Shown here: positions 13,021 through 21,273 of the stretch, in pieces
Numbering within the stretch: the first letter of the stretch is position 1
Layout: every line of letters starts with the position of its first letter
Assembly: GCA_022600195.1 (NCBI GenBank)
Contig: JAHZKX010000026.1
Location: 62,001-126,000 of the forward strand
DNA length: 64,000 nt
From: Planctomycetota bacterium
GTDB taxonomy: Bacteria; Planctomycetota; Planctomycetia; Planctomycetales; Planctomycetaceae
Direction: 5' to 3'
Position numbers and translations under genes: made by a program
Notes under the pieces: generated by a model
The model's input: the letters and a program-made list of their open reading frames with translations, nothing else
What the model was told of the DNA's origin: nothing
Databases searched by the model: none

Positions 13021-14562
13021 TCAGTTCTGATCGGCGTAGAGCGCGTAAATGTGAGCGTTGCTATCTTTCGCGAGTGTGACGCGAATTGAGAATGGTTCGG
13101 TGAAGGCAATGTCGGCGCTGTTTTTGGTGGGCCAGATGATTTTCTGGCGTGTGCCGTTTCTGTTGAGTTTCGCAGCGTACTTGCCGGAATAGTTGGCGAT
13201 TGGTTTGCCTTGGTCATCGATCAGCTCGACGATCGGCGGGGTTCCGGCATTCGCATGGTCAATATTGGCGATCAGGCGGACTCCCTTCTGTTTGGGATGG
13301 ATCGTGGTGGTGTTAAAAACTGCCTTGGCGCTTTGGTCGACTCGCGATAAATAACCGAAGCCGTCGCGTCGCATCTTCACCACTCCGACGCCGCCACGCG
13401 GTGGGAACTTCGGGGCCACTGTCAGATCCCAGGCTCCGTAGTAGATATAGGTTTCGTCGCCGACATGAGCGAAGCCCTGTCCCTGGAGCAGCCCGCCTAC
13501 GTCCCACTCGCCCACTGCCCCGGCCTTGATGAGCACGTAGTCGCGGATCGGTTCGCGGAAGTGGATGCCATTGTTGCTGATATTGAGGCCGAGATCGATG
13601 ATGCGATCTTTCCACTCGGGACCGCCCCTCCAGATACCGTAGACGCCGAGCAGCACGTTGTTACGATGCCAGACCGACGAGGGTAAATGCGCTTCCTCAT
13701 CTTCGGCGGGTTTACCGGGAATGCCGATGGCGGTGCCGCGCATAAAACCGAACGCGGGTGCCTCCTGCCAATGAATCAGATCTGGCGAGCGGTAGGTTGT
13801 CATCACCCGCCCGGCCACTTTGCCATCAGGCTGATAGACCCAGGGAGTGACCTGTTGACCGGCGAGGTGATACATTCCCTTCCAGCGAAACAGTCCGCCC
13901 TGCTCGAAATGCACAGGTGGCATGGTGCGGTACTCATCTTTGATCTGGCCGTTCTGGAACTCCATCTTCGTCGCACCTCGCCAACGCAACCCGTCTGCGC
14001 TGTAGAACGCGACCGATGTGGCGACGTTTTGCTTTCTCTCGGCCAGACGAGTCTGCACATTCATCATCATCTTGAAGCGGCGTGACGGATCGGGATCGTC
14101 GGCTTCGTGGAGCACGATCAAGTGGATGGTGCAGGCGTCCGGAGGGTCGACGGCGACCAGATTGTTGTTGGTGTTGCCGCGATAATTGACCAGCCCGAGA
14201 TTCGGTTTGGTCCAATGAATGCCGTCGTTACTCTCTGCGTAGGCAACGCGCAGACCTGCGTACGCCCTCTTGAAAACAGTATCATCGAGGGCGACGTACC
14301 AGAGTTTAAATTTTCCTTCGTGCTCGATCATCGAACCGTAGAACTGCACGCCGCCTTCATCGCAAGATCCTTTTTTACCGATGGGGATCAGCGGATTGTT
14401 CGGGTGCTTCTGCGGCGGCGTCATCGTCAGCTTGAGGTTCGATTTCCACGGGATGCTGTGGTCGTCAAAAGAGAACAGGCTGATGTCGTCTTCAGTCGAA
14501 TCTTCCGCATGTACCGAGGCAGTCAGGGTCAGTGCGATCACGAACAGCAGTAAGCGACTCAT
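13021..14562 (-). CDS. Secreted GH43/GH32-like beta-propeller protein
   Basis: A 513-residue exported protein. ATG 14562 is preceded by GGGAGC at 8 bases and starts a good signal peptide (MSRLLLFVIALTLTASVHAE). The body resembles the five-bladed propeller of glycoside hydrolase families 43/32: GVQFYGSMIEHEGKFKLWYVA, RVAYAESNDGIHWTKPNLGL, FYSADGLRWRG, TTYRSPDLIHWQEA and GDETYIYYGAWDL. A C-terminal beta-sandwich (about residues 410-513) ends in AHIYALYADQN. It probably acts on or binds polysaccharide outside the cytoplasm; catalytic acids cannot be fixed by eye. The gene is visibly GC-richer than its neighbours. A 61-bp relic of a paralogue lies 1.4 kb away, beyond the ExbD-like gene. Confidence 0.8.
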   Translation of the reverse strand: MSRLLLFVIALTLTASVHAEDSTEDDISLFSFDDHSIPWKSNLKLTMTPPQKHPNNPLIPIGKKGSCDEGGVQFYGSMIEHEGKFKLWYVALDDTVFKRAYAGLRVAYAESNDGIHWTKPNLGLVNYRGNTNNNLVAVDPPDACTIHLIVLHEADDPDPSRRFKMMMNVQTRLAERKQNVATSVAFYSADGLRWRGATKMEFQNGQIKDEYRTMPPVHFEQGGLFRWKGMYHLAGQQVTPWVYQPDGKVAGRVMTTYRSPDLIHWQEAPAFGFMRGTAIGIPGKPAEDEEAHLPSSVWHRNNVLLGVYGIWRGGPEWKDRIIDLGLNISNNGIHFREPIRDYVLIKAGAVGEWDVGGLLQGQGFAHVGDETYIYYGAWDLTVAPKFPPRGGVGVVKMRRDGFGYLSRVDQSAKAVFNTTTIHPKQKGVRLIANIDHANAGTPPIVELIDDQGKPIANYSGKYAAKLNRNGTRQKIIWPTKNSADIAFTEPFSIRVTLAKDSNAHIYALYADQN

Positions 14563-15502
14563 GGGGTGCTCCCGGGTTGTATTGAACGGCACTATCGATG
14601 TAGGCAGTGACGAACAGAGTGATTTACATTTCAGTGTAACAGTATCCGCAGCATTAGTTTAATGCAGAGTCGGTACAGGTGCTACTCAACGGCCACGCGA
14701 CCTGGGCTGCTCAGAGTATGGAATTGAATGCCGCTCATTCTTTGATTCATCGCTTGCAGTGCTCTCTGTGCACTTACGGATTATCAGCTCGGGCTTTCTG
14801 TGGCTATTGGATATCATTCTTGTTGAATTCGCTGGTGGTTATTCTCGGTTGGGTCGGGGATCTGTGGGTGAATTTTGCATAGTTGATTTTGCTCTGCGTG
14901 ATGACACATGGGTCGCGCCCCTACAAATTACTTGAGGTCAGCCTTACATGATTTGCTTGTTCTCGTTTTCTATTCTGTTTTTGTTACTAACGGCGGCTAG
15001 CGCCGTGCCGCTCAGATATTTGTTGTTGGTGGCTGGTTTGACTGAGGATGATTTTTGTGATCGGCGTGGGGCAGTCAAGTTGAGTATGGTGTTCGAACGG
15101 TGGTTGATAGCTGTCGAACCGTGGTTGAACGATGGTTCAAACGCGTCGAAGCGTGACCGAAGCGTGTCGATAACATACGAGATATTGGGAACCGGTGGCG
15201 ATTTTTCAGGTGAACGTTTTCAAAACAAAGGGACTTTTATAGTAGTGAGAAATTCAGTATTCGCTTTAAGCAGTGTGCAAAAAACTCATCTCGCGCGCGA
15301 CGCTTATAACGCATATTAGGGATGGAAAACGGGGTGTCAATCGGGAATGTTAGAGCACCTGAAAATCGGGAAGAGTGCCGTTTTTGAAAGATTTGAACGG
15401 GTCAAGGCAGAATGTGTTTGCTGAACTGAGAACAGAAGTGAATGGGGATACGTTGTGAACAAAGAGCAGCGATGAAGAGAGTGAGGTCAAATTGAAGGGT
15501 GG
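14563..15502. other. Large gene-poor region
   Basis: About 940 bases without a gene I can support. An open frame at 14948-15319 begins with a hydrophobic run but then passes through low-complexity DNA (GTGGTTGA twice and gaagcgtg-type words at about 15095-15170), and has no ribosome site. A phrase near 14910 (gggtcgcgcccctacaaatt) resembles decayed intergenic repeats. The region ends the five-gene operon. Confidence 0.5.
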
Positions 15503-16789
15503 TTACAAGGCGACTTCGGTTTCATCGGGTGTGGCGAGTTCGGGTAGTTCCTGTTGCATGATTGTGAACATTTCCGCGACTTCAGGTTTGAAAACATCGC
15601 CGATGAGGATATCGACGAGATTCGTTTTGAATTGTGGATATTGGCGAAGGAAAGTGCCAAAGCTGAAGCCGGGAGCGTAGAAGGCATAAACAAGTTTGCG
15701 GAAATTATCGAGTCCATTTCGATAGCCGGGATACCATTGGCTGAGGCGACTGACTGAGAAATCCTGTGCATCGAAGGCATCGTTGATGGCGTCGGCGATG
15801 AGTTCACCAGACTTCAAAGCCAGAAAGACGCCGCTGGAATAAACGGGATCGATGAAGCCAAGCGCATCGCCGGCCAGCATCCAGCCGGGGCCGACCGGTT
15901 GAGTGGTGTGGTAGGAGAAATCTTTTGTCGTCATAAATTCGGTAACGGGTTGGGCCTCGGTCAGACGTCTTTTAATGCCGATGCAGCGTTCGACTTCAGC
16001 ATAGAAAATTTCTTCACTGTTGCCACGTTCTTTGGAGAACATGTAATCCATGTCTCCGGTACAGCCGATGCTGACGACATTATCGGGAAGTGGAATGTAC
16101 CAGAACCAGGAACGTTTTCCTTCGGTTTGTAAAATGAGGGTGGCGCCTTCGTCGATTCCAGAATCACGGTGTGCATTTTTAAAGTGTGCCCAGACGGTCC
16201 CTTTTTTCAATACAGGGTCTGCGACTTTGAGTTTGAGTCGATTGGAGATGAATCCTGTTTGCCCGCTGGCATCCACGACCAGCTTCGCGTGGATGTCGAG
16301 AGTTTCCTTTGAACTGAGTTTCAGTTTGACGCCAGTGACTTGTTCTCCTTCGTTGAGAAGTTCAAGAACCTGGGCTCCGGTTTGGATGGTTGCTCCCTGA
16401 TTGCGGGCATTGTTGACGAGCATCTGATCGAATTCGGCTCTTAAGACCTGCCAGGTTTGGGAGCTTTCATGCTCTTTGTATTTGTTGAAGTAGAAGGGCA
16501 TTGTTTCGGTGCCTTCTTCCGTAACAAACTGGACGCTGAATTTTTTTGGGAAAGCTGTTTGCTTGAGTTGGTCGATGAGTCCGAGGCGTTTTAATTGCCA
16601 ATAGGTTTCGGGTATTAAAGATTCGCCTACGTGGAAGCGTGGAAACCGGGCGCGATCAACGACGAGCACTTTTCGTCCCTGTTCTGCCAGAAGTGCTCCT
16701 ACCGTTGAGCCAGCAGGACCTGCGCCGATTATGATAACATCATATTCCGAATCGAGGTTCGCCTGTTCATTCAGGTTTGTCTGCTTCAT
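15503..16789 (-). CDS. Flavin-dependent halogenase-like FAD enzyme
   Basis: A 428-residue FAD enzyme. The dinucleotide fold is at residues 17-28 (VIIIGAGPAGST), followed by the E-rich VVDRARFPRFHVGES. Two signatures of flavin-dependent halogenases are present: WFWYIP at 228-233 fits WxWxIP, and FIDPVYSSG at 312-320 fits FxxPxxSxG. FPKK at 80-83 is placed where such enzymes carry the lysine that handles hypohalous acid. GWMLAGDALGFIDP is the FAD-ribose region. Related geranylgeranyl-reductase-like oxidoreductases share the fold, so halogenation is a prediction. It is the last gene of a five-gene operon, 57 bases after the chorismate-lyase-like gene, an arrangement pointing to an aromatic substrate. 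AAAGG lies 6 bases before the ATG. Confidence 0.75.
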   Translation of the reverse strand: MKQTNLNEQANLDSEYDVIIIGAGPAGSTVGALLAEQGRKVLVVDRARFPRFHVGESLIPETYWQLKRLGLIDQLKQTAFPKKFSVQFVTEEGTETMPFYFNKYKEHESSQTWQVLRAEFDQMLVNNARNQGATIQTGAQVLELLNEGEQVTGVKLKLSSKETLDIHAKLVVDASGQTGFISNRLKLKVADPVLKKGTVWAHFKNAHRDSGIDEGATLILQTEGKRSWFWYIPLPDNVVSIGCTGDMDYMFSKERGNSEEIFYAEVERCIGIKRRLTEAQPVTEFMTTKDFSYHTTQPVGPGWMLAGDALGFIDPVYSSGVFLALKSGELIADAINDAFDAQDFSVSRLSQWYPGYRNGLDNFRKLVYAFYAPGFSFGTFLRQYPQFKTNLVDILIGDVFKPEVAEMFTIMQQELPELATPDETEVAL

Positions 16790-16846
16790 GAAGGGCCTTT
16801 AGTATTACGAGTCTAAATCTAATTTCGAGCAGCATTTTATTTGGGT

Positions 16847-17443
16847 TTATAGCAGACGCGCGGAAATTTCCAAGAGGTCAATTGCGGGTTGCTGGTTACA
16901 AAAAATAGTTGCCAGACGTCCATAGGTAATTTCGCCTGGCTGAATCTTCATTACTTTGGCCAGTCCGGGGCCTGCGGTAATTCGCAGAACCGCTCCTAAA
17001 TCAACATGACGCAGGACATTGTGATTGATGAGCACCCGTCCCAGCGGGATATCTCCTGCGAGGATTTCGTCCTTGACGGCCTGGGTGACATAATCAAAAT
17101 TGAACCTGACGATTCCAAACTGAACGACATCATCGGTACCCGTTTTGGATAAGAGAATGATTCTACTATAAATATTTTCGTCCAGTCGTTGATCCAGCAC
17201 GGTCACATCAACGGGAGATTGATGATAATCTTCCATTGTCACAGTCATATGATGATTGTGAGCCAGCAGTGTTTTATAGGGGTCTGGCAGTGAGGCTGAG
17301 GAAACGTGTTCCGCCTTTTCAAACAGTGGTTGTTCGTTCGGAAACAATTTGACAAGAGCATCGAGTTCGTCTTGTGGGTTCACTTGAGAATGATTTCTTT
17401 TTGCTGGAGTTGATCTTTCGAGGATGATCGTGGTGAGTTTCAA
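16847..17443 (-). CDS. Chorismate pyruvate-lyase-like protein (DUF98)
   Basis: A 198-residue soluble protein resembling the DUF98/Rv2949c family. Its characterised member removes pyruvate from chorismate to give 4-hydroxybenzoate. The core pattern is visible: [22 protein letters not shown], then [19 protein letters not shown] near 130-150, then [25 protein letters not shown] at the end. In the family the Arg/Leu-Gly stretch and the late Glu bind the product. Length matches the mycobacterial enzyme. The start is TTG at 17443 (or GTG at 17383), with no good ribosome site. It lies only 20 bases after the radical SAM gene, so translation may be coupled. Its position between a radical SAM enzyme and a halogenase-like flavoprotein suggests that it supplies an aromatic acid. 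Confidence 0.7.
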
Positions 17444-17463
17444 TCAAATACAACGATAAAAAA

Positions 17464-18774
17464 TTATGTGTATCGAACCATGCGGTGTTCTGGTTCGAAG
17501 TATTCTGTCAGTAGGCTGTCGGCCTGAAGGAGGCCTTTGCGTGTGAGTTTTACTTGAGTGTCATCAAAGGTGAGGTAGCCTGCATTTTGCTGATTTTCCA
17601 ATGCTTCGGAAAATTCTTCTGTTAATTTGACGCCGAACTTATCATAAAAAGGCTGAGTCAAAACGCGGCCTTCTTTGAGTTGCAACACAAATTCGCGGAT
17701 GAGACGTTGGTGTTCTGTCGGTTCGAGTGCACGATTGATGGGCAGTTTTCCTGATTCCACCGTTTCCAGATAGTCTTCCAGTCGATCGAGGTTTTGATAA
17801 TGAACGCCTTGCAGATGTCCAAAGGAAGAGACGCCCGTAGCGATGAGATCATTGCCGCGAAATAAGTTATCGCGATAAACGAAGCGATCTGTCTCGGGGT
17901 TTTTCACCAGTTCGTTTCCGCTTGCCAGATGATAACCTTTCGATAGTAGTTTTTCGATGGCTTCATTCATCCAGCGTCGTTTGGTGGCCCAGTTGGCAAT
18001 GGGCGAAGTAATGCCCATCTCTTTGATTTCCTTGGAAATGATCGTGTTGTGTGGTAGTTCCATCTGATAGATGGTGATGTTTTCTGGCGACAGTTCTATT
18101 GCTTTTTCGACAGACTCGGTCCAGTTTTCGTCCGTTTCCCCCATCATGCCTGCAATCAGGTCGATATTGACTTGAGGAAAGCCGACTTGTTGAATCCAGT
18201 CGTATGCCTTGAAGACTTCGGGAGTCAGGTGAGCGCGTCCGTTGGCTTCGAGTAAAGTATCGTTAAAACTTTCGATGCCCAATGAGATGCGTGTAATACC
18301 GATTTCTTTGAGTGTTTGCACTTTTTCAAGATTGAGTGTGCCCGGCTCACATTCAAAAGTGACTTCCTGCGCGGTTTCCCATGAGAGCAGGCTGGAGAGT
18401 CGGTCGCGCAGTGAAAGTAATTGTTTGGAGCTTAGGTAGGAAGGAGTTCCCCCGCCGAAATAGGTGAAATCGAGCGTGCGATCTTTAATGGCTTCGACGT
18501 TGCTGAGGAGTTCGAATTCGCGTTCTAGCGCCTGGACATAGCGATCGATGGTTTTGGCGTTCTGTTTTTCATAGACACGGAAATAACAGAATTTGCATCG
18601 TTTGCGGCAGAAGGGGATATGGATATAAAGCCCCATTGGAATACTGGCATCCGGGCTTTGATGCAATACTTCATGAATTCGGGTGACGTATTCCTGTTTC
18701 CACAGTGAAAAAGGAGGGTAGTTCGAAACAAAGTAACTGCCAACTTCGGTTGTACCTGTCGTTTCCAGATCCAT
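17464..18774 (-). CDS. HemN-like radical SAM protein
   Basis: A 436-residue radical SAM enzyme with a HemN-type core: [19 protein letters not shown] at 50-68, the iron-sulfur cysteines being C56, C60 and C63. [30 protein letters not shown] and [17 protein letters not shown] follow. The C-terminal HemN-like domain (about 320-436) contains LKEGRV and [13 protein letters not shown]. The family includes oxygen-independent coproporphyrinogen oxidase, HemW haem chaperones and class C methyltransferases; motifs alone do not separate them. A second, more HemW-like copy exists at 29140-30342, so this one is likely a specialised paralogue serving the operon. It is preceded by the propeller gene (88-base gap) and followed by the chorismate-lyase-like gene (20 bases). 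Confidence 0.85.
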
Positions 18775-18862
18775 AATTCTCTCAAACTTTGATTGTATTT
18801 TTAGCCAGCAAACACACGATTAACACTACATTTTGTGTTTACGTATTCTCTACTTCTTATTG

Positions 18863-20086
18863 TCACTTCTTTCCGAAACAATACAAGGCACCATTTCGGG
18901 ATTCTGTCCCAATGATCAGATGTCCGGAGCCAATTGCCGGTGAAGCGGTGACGTCGCTTCCTAAATTCTTTTTCCAGAGCATCTTTCCATTTTGCAGGTT
19001 GAGTTCGTACAGATTGCCATCAGATGAGCCGATGAAGACACGATTTCCGACAATCACCGGCGAGCTGTCAACCCGGCCGCGTGTACCGTATTTCCAGACC
19101 GGTTTTCCAGTTTTCCTCTCGACACAATGAATCTGTTTGTCTCGCCCGCCGGCGACGACATATTCATCCGTGATGGCTGCTGAGGAATGGTAGGGCAATT
19201 CTTTAATGGGGTCATTGTAACGCCATTCCACTTTCTGGGTTTTCCAGTTCACCGCGATGATTTCACTGGCATATGTTCCGACATACAGACTCTCGCCCAT
19301 CAACGCGGGTGATGCAATCAGGTAGGTTGCTAACGGCATCTGGCTGTGTTGCTGGCCTGTTTTGATATCAATCACACGTAGCTGCTCATCGCAACCGGTG
19401 ACAAACGTGAAATTGTCTACAATGGCCGGTGAGCAATTCACATAGCCGTCTGTTTCAAATTTCCAGGCCAGTGATCCATCGGACTCATTCAAACAATAAA
19501 GAAAATTATCGTAGCCACCAAACAGGATTTTTCCGTTGGTGATGTTGGCGCTGCTGATAATTTCGGCGTCGGTTTTAAATTGCCAGAGTTTTTTCCCTGT
19601 CAGGCGATCAATGGCATGGAAGATCCCATCTTCATCGCCCAGGTAAACGCCTTTGTCAGTGACCAGCGGAGATGCTTTAAAACCGGGAGCGAATTGATCG
19701 GGGTTTGGGTCATCGATGGAACGGTATTTCCAGACTGGTTTCCCTGTTTTTAATTCGAGACATTCCACGTAGCCATTCAAGCCAGCCATATAAACGCGAT
19801 CGCCGACAATTGCTGCGGTAGATGCGATTCCGTCGGATGAGGTATGTTGCCAGAGAAGTTCCAGTTTGTCAGGCAGTGATGATTTGGCAATTCCCTGTTG
19901 CAGATTGCCATTTCGAAAGGAAGCCCAGTTGCCTGGTTTACTTTCGGTTTCAGACACGTTGATGCTTGTGTTATTCTCAGGTTTTTCCGCGGCGCGTGTA
20001 TTAAAAGTAATAATGACACAGGTGATCAAAACTGCGAAAACCCCGAAGGATAAAGCCTGTTTTTTGAGATCGCTTAAAATGCGCAT
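18863..20086 (-). CDS. PQQ-like beta-propeller protein, membrane-anchored
   Basis: A 407-residue BamB/PQQ-type propeller. An N-terminal hydrophobic segment ([15 protein letters not shown], about residues 14-28) acts as signal or anchor. Repeated blades show the tryptophan-docking pattern: [51 protein letters not shown] and [12 protein letters not shown]. No catalytic Ca/PQQ residues or haem motif can be recognised, so it is more likely a binding or scaffold propeller than a dehydrogenase. Its start overlaps the end of the iron alcohol dehydrogenase gene by 13 bases, which argues for co-translation. Role in the operon is unknown. Confidence 0.88.
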
Positions 20087-21273
20087 TCGTACAATTCCCT
20101 TAACGAGGATTCATCAACGGGTCGTGGATTAAAATTACCCGTCCACTGTCGAGAGGCTTCTTCAGCGAGCTGATCTATCAGACTGGAGTCGACATTACAT
20201 TCGGTGAGTGAAGTAGGAGCCCCTGCAGTTGCAATTAATGATTGAATATGTTCTGCCAGTAAATCGGCGCCTGCAGGATCGTGTTGTTCACATAAGCCGA
20301 TGTCCGCAGCGAGAACTGAATAATATTCGCCGACCAGTTCTGCATTAAATCGAATGACGTGCGGCAGCATAATTCCAATGGCAACACCATGTGTCAGATC
20401 AAAATGGGCAGAGAGCGGATTTGCCAGTGCGTGCGTTGCACCCAGCATGGAGTTTTCGATGGCAGCGCCTGCGAAGTGTGCTCCCAACTGCATATTTCCG
20501 CGTGCGGTCAGATCGTCGGGGGTTTCAAGCACTTTCGGAAAACTGTTTGCCAAGAGTGACCAGGCGCGACGGCTGAAGAGTTGTGAAATTTCATTTCGTG
20601 GTTTCGTGACGAATGTTTCGAGGGCATGGCTTAAAGCGTCGATGCCAGTGACATGTGTCACGGAGCGGGGCATGGTGAGTGTTAATTCGGGATCGAGAAT
20701 GGCAATTTTGCAGGCGGCTTTTTTATCGCCACAGGCCATTTTCATGTGAGTTTCCGGATGCGCGATGACGGCAAACGACTGTGCTTCGCTCCCCGTTCCT
20801 GCGGTGGTCGGGACGGCAATCAAGGGGAGCATTGGTTTGGCTGCTTTACCGACTCCCCAGTAGTCCTGCATCTGTCCGCCGTTGGTCAGGAGGAAGTTGA
20901 TGCCCTTGGCACAATCCATGCTGCTGCCGCCACCCAGGCCGACGATCAGATCGATCTGGTGGTTGCGTGCGACCTGAAGACCTCGTTCGACATCTTCTGT
21001 TGTGGGATTTGGGTGGACATCATCAAAGATGGTGGTTTGAAGATTCGCGTTTTCCAGAGAGGCCACCGCGCGTGCTTCATGGCCGACTTCAGCAAGTCCT
21101 TTGTCTGTTACCAGGAGAACGCGTTTTGCTCCCAGTTCTGAAGAGAGTTCTCCCAGTCGGTCTAAAGATCCAGCACCAAAGATAATTCGCGTACTGGGTG
21201 CATAATCAAAGGTAGAAAGAGGGGGCCCTGCTTCCTGTTGAGTGTTTAGACTGGCTGACGATTTCGAATCCAT
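20074..21273 (-). CDS. Iron-containing alcohol dehydrogenase
   Basis: A 399-residue group III (iron-type) alcohol dehydrogenase. It has [15 protein letters not shown] at the N-terminus, the NAD-binding [15 protein letters not shown] near 108-122, [16 protein letters not shown], and metal ligands within [33 protein letters not shown] and [13 protein letters not shown]. Such enzymes reduce aldehydes or oxidise short or aromatic alcohols with NAD(P). It is the first gene of the minus-strand operon; the 365-base spacer before it should contain the operon promoter. An aldehyde or alcohol step in aromatic metabolism would fit the downstream genes, but a general redox role is equally possible. Confidence 0.9.

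Follow-up and report, generated by a model that had tools for sequence, protein, structure and literature searches.

The marine bmp clusters, which make brominated phenols and pyrroles, pair a chorismate lyase with a flavin halogenase, and the clusters for flexirubins and aryl polyenes also contain a halogenase-like protein dependent on flavin adenine dinucleotide (FAD). A comparable pairing is present in the DNA considered here, a stretch of 64,000 nt (the window) from contig JAHZKX010000026.1 of the planctomycete assembly GCA_022600195.1 (positions 62,001–126,000, forward strand; genome of 6.58 Mb; order Planctomycetales, family Planctomycetaceae). Five minus-strand genes encode, from first to last, an iron-containing alcohol dehydrogenase, a beta-propeller of the BamB/PQQ (pyrroloquinoline quinone) type, a HemN-like radical S-adenosylmethionine (SAM) protein (rSAM), a small chorismate-lyase-like protein (D98) and a halogenase-type FAD protein. 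The locus shares with bmp clusters the combination of a putative chorismate lyase and a putative flavin halogenase, but among ten planctomycete cluster genes scanned with Pfam (see below) there is neither a carrier-protein/thioesterase fusion nor a P450, and the set has the HemN-like protein and a reductive module instead. An earlier, sequence-only reading proposed that these five genes might by themselves make a halogenated or otherwise modified hydroxybenzoate. Its list of parts holds, but the pathway extends beyond them and has the appearance of core metabolism of the order, not of a niche operon. The explanation that we favour, with modest confidence, places the five genes in an ancient pathway that leads from chorismate to a modified aromatic compound and to its export, a pathway near-universal in Planctomycetales and scattered through other planctomycete classes.

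The order was sampled with 120 genomes from 47 genera, using cut-offs of E≤1e-3 for D98, E≤1e-60 for the FAD protein and E≤1e-100 for rSAM. D98 was found in 116 genomes, rSAM in 117 and the FAD protein in 118 (96.7–98.3%), each in 46 of the 47 genera, and presence at this level argues against a niche secondary metabolite. Across the phylum (254 genomes, each at least 90% complete) the numbers are 58, 79 and 82, and outside the family of the window 31, 52 and 55 of 227, so that nearly every genome of the order has the gene set, whereas its distribution over the phylum is patchy. All 58 phylum genomes with D98 also have rSAM and the FAD protein; these two occur together in 77 genomes, with two exceptions for rSAM and five for the FAD protein. 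The p values calculated for this co-occurrence take no account of common descent. The original proposal, in which the five genes stand alone as a secondary-metabolite operon with a halogenated hydroxybenzoate as its product, is consistent with the chorismate-lyase-like fold, the halogenase-type flavoenzyme and the tight gene spacing, but it is improbable for genes that are found in nearly every genus of an order and that belong to a larger cluster in other classes.

Gene order was compared in 38 neighbourhoods of D98, picked from the 116 for contig extent and diversity. The expectation that the five genes travel together was borne out, with 11 of the 38 retaining all five in the same order and on the same strand, and rSAM lying near D98 in 25. 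Together with the window, these neighbourhoods share the five families at 16–30 loci each, the next family reaching only 5, and the grouping is therefore beyond chance. A further family of about 470 aa occurs in 16 of 78 stretches, 40 of which surround dispersed copies. Among the best 80 of 221 named loci, 14 have all five genes in order and 13 more have rSAM-D98-FAD, while D98 stands alone in 22, a number in which contig ends and true dispersal are mixed. The named loci and the neighbourhoods coincide in places (L044 with L139, for example, and L076 with L187) and cannot be counted as independent sets.

Elsewhere, in planctomycetes of other families and classes, the five genes have about ten further gene families as neighbours. 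This is seen in 40 stretches around matches from those groups (some genomes give two), 11 of which have the exact five-gene order. Families were defined as single-linkage groups and counted as non-overlapping open reading frames (ORFs), and their functions come from a Pfam scan of nine proteins of locus L238 and one of L237. The recurrent members are a glycosyltransferase and a 4HBT thioesterase (18 loci each), an FtsX permease (17), an aldehyde dehydrogenase (15), a sodium symporter (14), a small AMP-binding enzyme resembling EhpF and an ATP-binding cassette (ABC) ATPase (13 each), a PaaK-like ligase (12), a 182-aa membrane protein (11) and a DUF3311 protein (9). Within the order, genes for the symporter, thioesterase, ABC and FtsX proteins adjoin the core in some loci (L067, L071, L076, L179), and DUF3311 lies near it in four (L044, L048, L067, L071). 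The aldehyde dehydrogenase, glycosyltransferase and PaaK-like ligase are present in 118, 114 and 118 of the 120 genomes of the order, and the genome of the window (G000) carries them on contigs C7, C26 and C3. The ligase resembles FlxY (133.9 bits against a cut-off of 520), and it is this protein, the thioesterase and the halogenase-like FAD protein that recall flexirubin and aryl polyene clusters; unlike those, the ten conserved genes scanned include no ketosynthase, and no carrier protein either. An aryl polyene cluster, which the large clusters had brought to mind, was dropped as a candidate once the scanned genes turned out to encode transporters, ligases, a thioesterase and a glycosyltransferase in place of ketosynthases.

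EhpF and EhpG of D-alanylgriseoluteic acid biosynthesis reduce a carboxylate, and the planctomycete genes resemble them in placing a small AMP-binding ligase beside an aldehyde dehydrogenase. The best relative of the ligase in the PDB is EhpF (5.7e-37). Of 11 loci compared in the order, seven have its gene ahead of that for the aldehyde dehydrogenase, two of them with small ORFs in between. Unlike a pair within its cluster, that of the window's genome is on another contig (G000:C7); its aromatic substrate is an assumption here, and the comparison by sequence covered EhpF. In Proteus mirabilis BL95, according to an excerpt of PMC11278526, ehpF and ehpG (AMP-binding and aldehyde dehydrogenase) are adjacent among phenazine genes, and an excerpt of the EhpR paper (PMC3175449) has EhpF to EhpO, save EhpJ, taking phenazine-1,6-dicarboxylic acid onward. 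The labels LuxC and LuxE were considered for the aldehyde dehydrogenase and the small ligase, and were discarded, as Pfam gives Aldedh and AMP-binding only and the solved relative is EhpF.

D98 is encoded at 16847–17383 (minus strand), within a listed ORF that extends to 17443. Because its relatives begin at a conserved M/V-N-P, the start is most likely the GTG at 17383 and not the TTG at 17443, giving a protein of 178 aa and a gap of 80 bases to the rSAM gene. The three nearest named relatives (97%, 91% and 88% identical) come from Gimesia metagenome-assembled genomes, which suggests that the window is itself from Gimesia. As for the DUF98 label given previously, the predicted fold supports it and Pfam does not. 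The window protein reaches no Pfam gathering score, PF01947 and PF04345 included, and PF01947 was found in 0 of 1 genomes when its own genome was searched; of 30 relatives, three have a hit to PF01947, the strongest at E 0.0081, and one of ten from outside the order touches PF04345 (E 0.33). An AlphaFold2 model (48 sequences; predicted local distance difference test score, pLDDT, 93.4) has as its best fold match the DUF98 protein AF1396 (2nwi, ranks 1–3, E 1.9e-8, template modelling (TM) scores 0.67/0.74), and UbiC with bound product (1fw9) follows at rank 34 (E 2.1e-4). An alignment of 23 diverse members has 15 invariant positions. UbiC residues Arg76, Gly90 and Glu155 (mature numbering, without the first Met), which belong to its active site, align to Arg74, Gly90 and Glu172 of the window protein, invariant in 23 of 23 rows. 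In its predicted fold and these three residues D98 is like the UbiC and DUF98 (Rv2949c-like) chorismate lyases, differing from them in lying below the Pfam cut-offs, and the model suggests a chorismate-lyase-like protein.

The FAD protein (15503–16789, minus strand) has a GAGPAG motif, an invariant Lys83 and a C-terminal region alignable to PltA; the motifs WFWYIP, FIDPVYSSG and FPKK, picked out in the sequence-only reading, are all present. It carries the complete halogenase pattern of GxGxxG, active-site Lys, WxWxIP and FxxPxxSxG. In an alignment of 43 sequences the second Lys of FPKK and the motifs WxWxIP and FxxPxxSxG are conserved at 95% or above. Nine halogenases and 3nix make up its ten PDB relatives at 1e-30, with sequence scores of 203.9 bits for 8zop vs 61.8 bits for 3oz2, which is geranylgeranyl-reductase-like. 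The model (pLDDT 88.4) matches FasV, PltA, ChlB4, Bmp2, Mpy16 and CndH first, and its first 20 matches are halogenases or the related 3nix; halogenases take ranks 1–12 and 20–34, 3nix rank 13 and 3oz2 rank 45. These scores and ranks rule out a geranylgeranyl reductase, against which the earlier halogenase assignment had been set, and leave the protein as halogenase-type. It falls below the NCBIfam cut-offs for CmlS (194.5/900 bits) and the geranylgeranyl reductase superfamily (127.5/158.8 bits). By its model it appears closest to PltA/Bmp2-type halogenases, and it has in common with PltA, Mpy16, Bmp2, ChlB4 and FasV the whole-length fold (TM to query 0.83–0.86), the Lys and both motifs; it differs in being only 27–30% identical to them, in having no carrier-protein gene seen alongside and in being near-universal in an order. 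Outside the planctomycetes, where plasmid records only were searched, all 194 matches are less than 60% identical.

A tree of the FAD proteins of the order divides them into two subfamilies. One is a clade of 25 rows that contains the window and every one of the 16 co-located copies; the other, of 13 rows, holds dispersed copies along with the second copies from two same-genus genomes. The tree has no outgroup (the Streptomyces halogenase L297 was left out) and therefore tests planctomycete subfamilies only. Four genomes of the window's genus (G025, G036, G059 and G063; L110, L130) carry a second FAD homologue that is about 45% identical and is joined in the tree by eleven dispersed copies from other genera.

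The rSAM protein (17464–18774, minus strand) shows the CxxxCxxC cluster (residues 56/60/63) and the HemN_C domain of the HemN family. An alignment of 60 rSAM sequences from the phylum has 122 positions conserved at 95% or above, the highest number among the three families counted. The window protein scores below the curated cut-offs for HemN (190.6/324.95 bits), HemW (182.1/205.4), HutW (205.8/400) and STM4012 (202/380). NocN and NosN act on an aromatic acid. At 1e-6 there are two solved relatives, HemN and the methyltransferase NocN (2.6e-25), and the sequence relation to NocN suggests that rSAM may be an aromatic-carbon methyltransferase. After rSAM, three loci outside the order (L262–L264) have a conserved protein of 360–380 aa.

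The first gene, for the alcohol dehydrogenase (20074–21273, minus strand; PF00465 4.3e-56, PF25137), overlaps the propeller gene (18863–20086, minus strand; PF13570, PF13360 and PF01011 above cut-off) by 13 bases, and this overlap and the further spacings of 88, 20 and 57 bases given at the outset are correct for the listed ORFs. Asp212, His216, His281 and His295, the usual metal-ligand positions, are conserved in 41 aligned alcohol dehydrogenase sequences. The top score of this protein is to ErcA (320.7/550 bits), a regulatory alcohol dehydrogenase-like protein, and its gene adjoins that of the PQQ-like propeller. ErcA is linked to PQQ-dependent ethanol oxidation. The N-terminus of the propeller is hydrophobic and signal-like as judged by eye, and the protein lies below the NCBIfam cut-offs for PQQ dehydrogenases (TIGR03300, 205.7/285.2 bits; TIGR03075, 94.1/480.05 bits). 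Downstream of the operon, a gene at 13021–14592 encodes a protein of 523 aa that weakly resembles GH32/glycoside-phosphorylase proteins. As an operon partner it was rejected, the 24% match to it in L048 being taken as chance.

Beyond the order but still in its class, loci from two families have genes for squalene-hopene-cyclase-like, polyprenyl-synthase-like and extra radical SAM proteins between rSAM and D98 (L262, 10091–13818; L263), and the same three families occur near rSAM in another class (L249), the labels coming from a scan of the L262 proteins only. Such genes would suit a quinone or redox cofactor, in which 4-hydroxybenzoate is the ring precursor, the FAD protein a ring hydroxylase and the HemN-like protein a ring C-methylase, and near-universality in the order also suits a cofactor. 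A glycosyltransferase and an exporter are ill-suited to a membrane quinone, however, and menaquinones are a general product of Planctomycetales according to an excerpt of PMC7716856, and an undescribed quinone is improbable. In methanogens, the same acid has been proposed as a precursor of tetrahydromethanopterin, and supply of an aryl part for planctomycete C1 metabolism was considered. The marker methenyl-tetrahydromethanopterin cyclohydrolase (PF02289, E≤1e-20, 254 genomes) is found in 44 of the 58 D98 genomes, but the other 14, with D98, rSAM and FAD protein, are without it, and 3 of 47 PF02289 genomes have no D98. This role is rejected as very improbable, since the gene set occurs without the marker.

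Reported natural products offer another possibility. Alichondrichlorin, from Alienimonas chondri of the family Planctomycetaceae, is a 4-hydroxybenzoic acid ester of a chlorinated fatty acid, a chlorinated fatty acid is also reported from Rhodopirellula baltica, and the genes for alichondrichlorin are given as unknown (all from excerpts of PMC12078418). In a pathway of this type 4-hydroxybenzoate would be joined to a lipid, the ligase, aldehyde dehydrogenase and alcohol dehydrogenase would reduce a fatty acid and the FAD protein would make the chlorinated part. Synthesis of such a compound would call for a chorismate lyase and a halogenase, and the cluster does hold an exporter with an FtsX permease. 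Against this, the nearest solved relative of the EhpF-like enzyme serves the synthesis of an aromatic compound (a phenazine), the halogenases closest in fold have aromatic rings as substrates, and a compound from a single strain need not account for an order-wide trait; an aryl lipid is unlikely, though less so than a quinone.

The pathway that we favour probably builds a modified aromatic compound from chorismate, and from the observed gene content, conservation, clustering, predicted folds and conserved active-site positions we infer every one of its chemical steps. D98 would cleave chorismate to 4-hydroxybenzoate and pyruvate, as its predicted fold and residues suggest, and the PaaK-like ligase, encoded elsewhere in the genome, would turn the aryl acid into a thioester. 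The FAD protein may then halogenate or hydroxylate the activated phenol, in the manner of PltA/Bmp2-type enzymes on carrier-bound rings, with halogenation favoured by nothing beyond the motifs. In the weakest step, the HemN-like protein would put a carbon on the ring, as do its relatives NosN and NocN. The EhpF-like adenylating enzyme and the adjacent aldehyde dehydrogenase, also encoded elsewhere, may reduce the carboxylate to an aldehyde, from which the operon's alcohol dehydrogenase would yield a benzylic alcohol; the glycosyltransferase would glycosylate the product and the ABC/FtsX system export it. The fuller proposal, that about 15 families lead from chorismate to a reduced 4-hydroxyphenyl compound that carries a sugar, has a modified ring (perhaps by halogenation and C-methylation) and is exported, and that this pathway already existed in early planctomycetes, has persisted in several classes and is near-essential metabolism in the order, is tentative and falls somewhat short of an even chance.

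Several observations weigh against this explanation. Neither rSAM nor the FAD protein is found in 170 of the 254 genomes, and no D98 was detected in 19 of the 77 with both, so the starting acid may differ there or D98 may be too diverged. Only 16 of the 38 neighbourhoods have the FAD protein near D98, and some of the 118 FAD matches are members of the second subfamily, all of whose copies lie away from the operon. Within the order most of the additional genes are at other places in the genome, so that their membership of the pathway there rests on co-occurrence, which is weak evidence because most of the core genes are near-universal; the window's genome has a glycosyltransferase with just 38% identity to the query. 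The D98 fold is also that of the ligand-sensing domains in GntR/HutC regulators, which rank above UbiC (4–33), pairwise BLAST of D98 with UbiC gives no match and hhalign profile comparison a probability of only 69.5%. Halogenase motifs are no proof of halogenation, no member of the set is known to have an activity, and the propeller has no step in the scheme.

The composition had been said to match no known pathway, and no publication on the gene set was found in the literature searched. Planctomycete literature on chorismate lyase, on 4-hydroxybenzoate with radical SAM and on halogenase with chorismate, judged by titles and the starts of abstracts, has nothing on it. The set is apparently undescribed, and may overlap those that have been postulated for strain 10988. 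According to excerpts of PMC12078418, the share of genes of unknown function in planctomycetes is one of the highest of any phylum, only five compounds or compound classes are counted from them, and genetic tools are available for Planctopirus limnophila. The gene set provides candidate genes for alichondrichlorin. The larger and more interesting fact is the order-wide pathway with relatives in other planctomycete classes, and this has the look of a basic trait of the group. It would be rare to find a HemN-like radical SAM protein and a halogenase-type enzyme among core genes and, if the proposal is true, a pathway with both would be part of core physiology. With a conserved gene set of readable chemistry in nearly every sampled genome of the order, planctomycete aromatic metabolism becomes testable.

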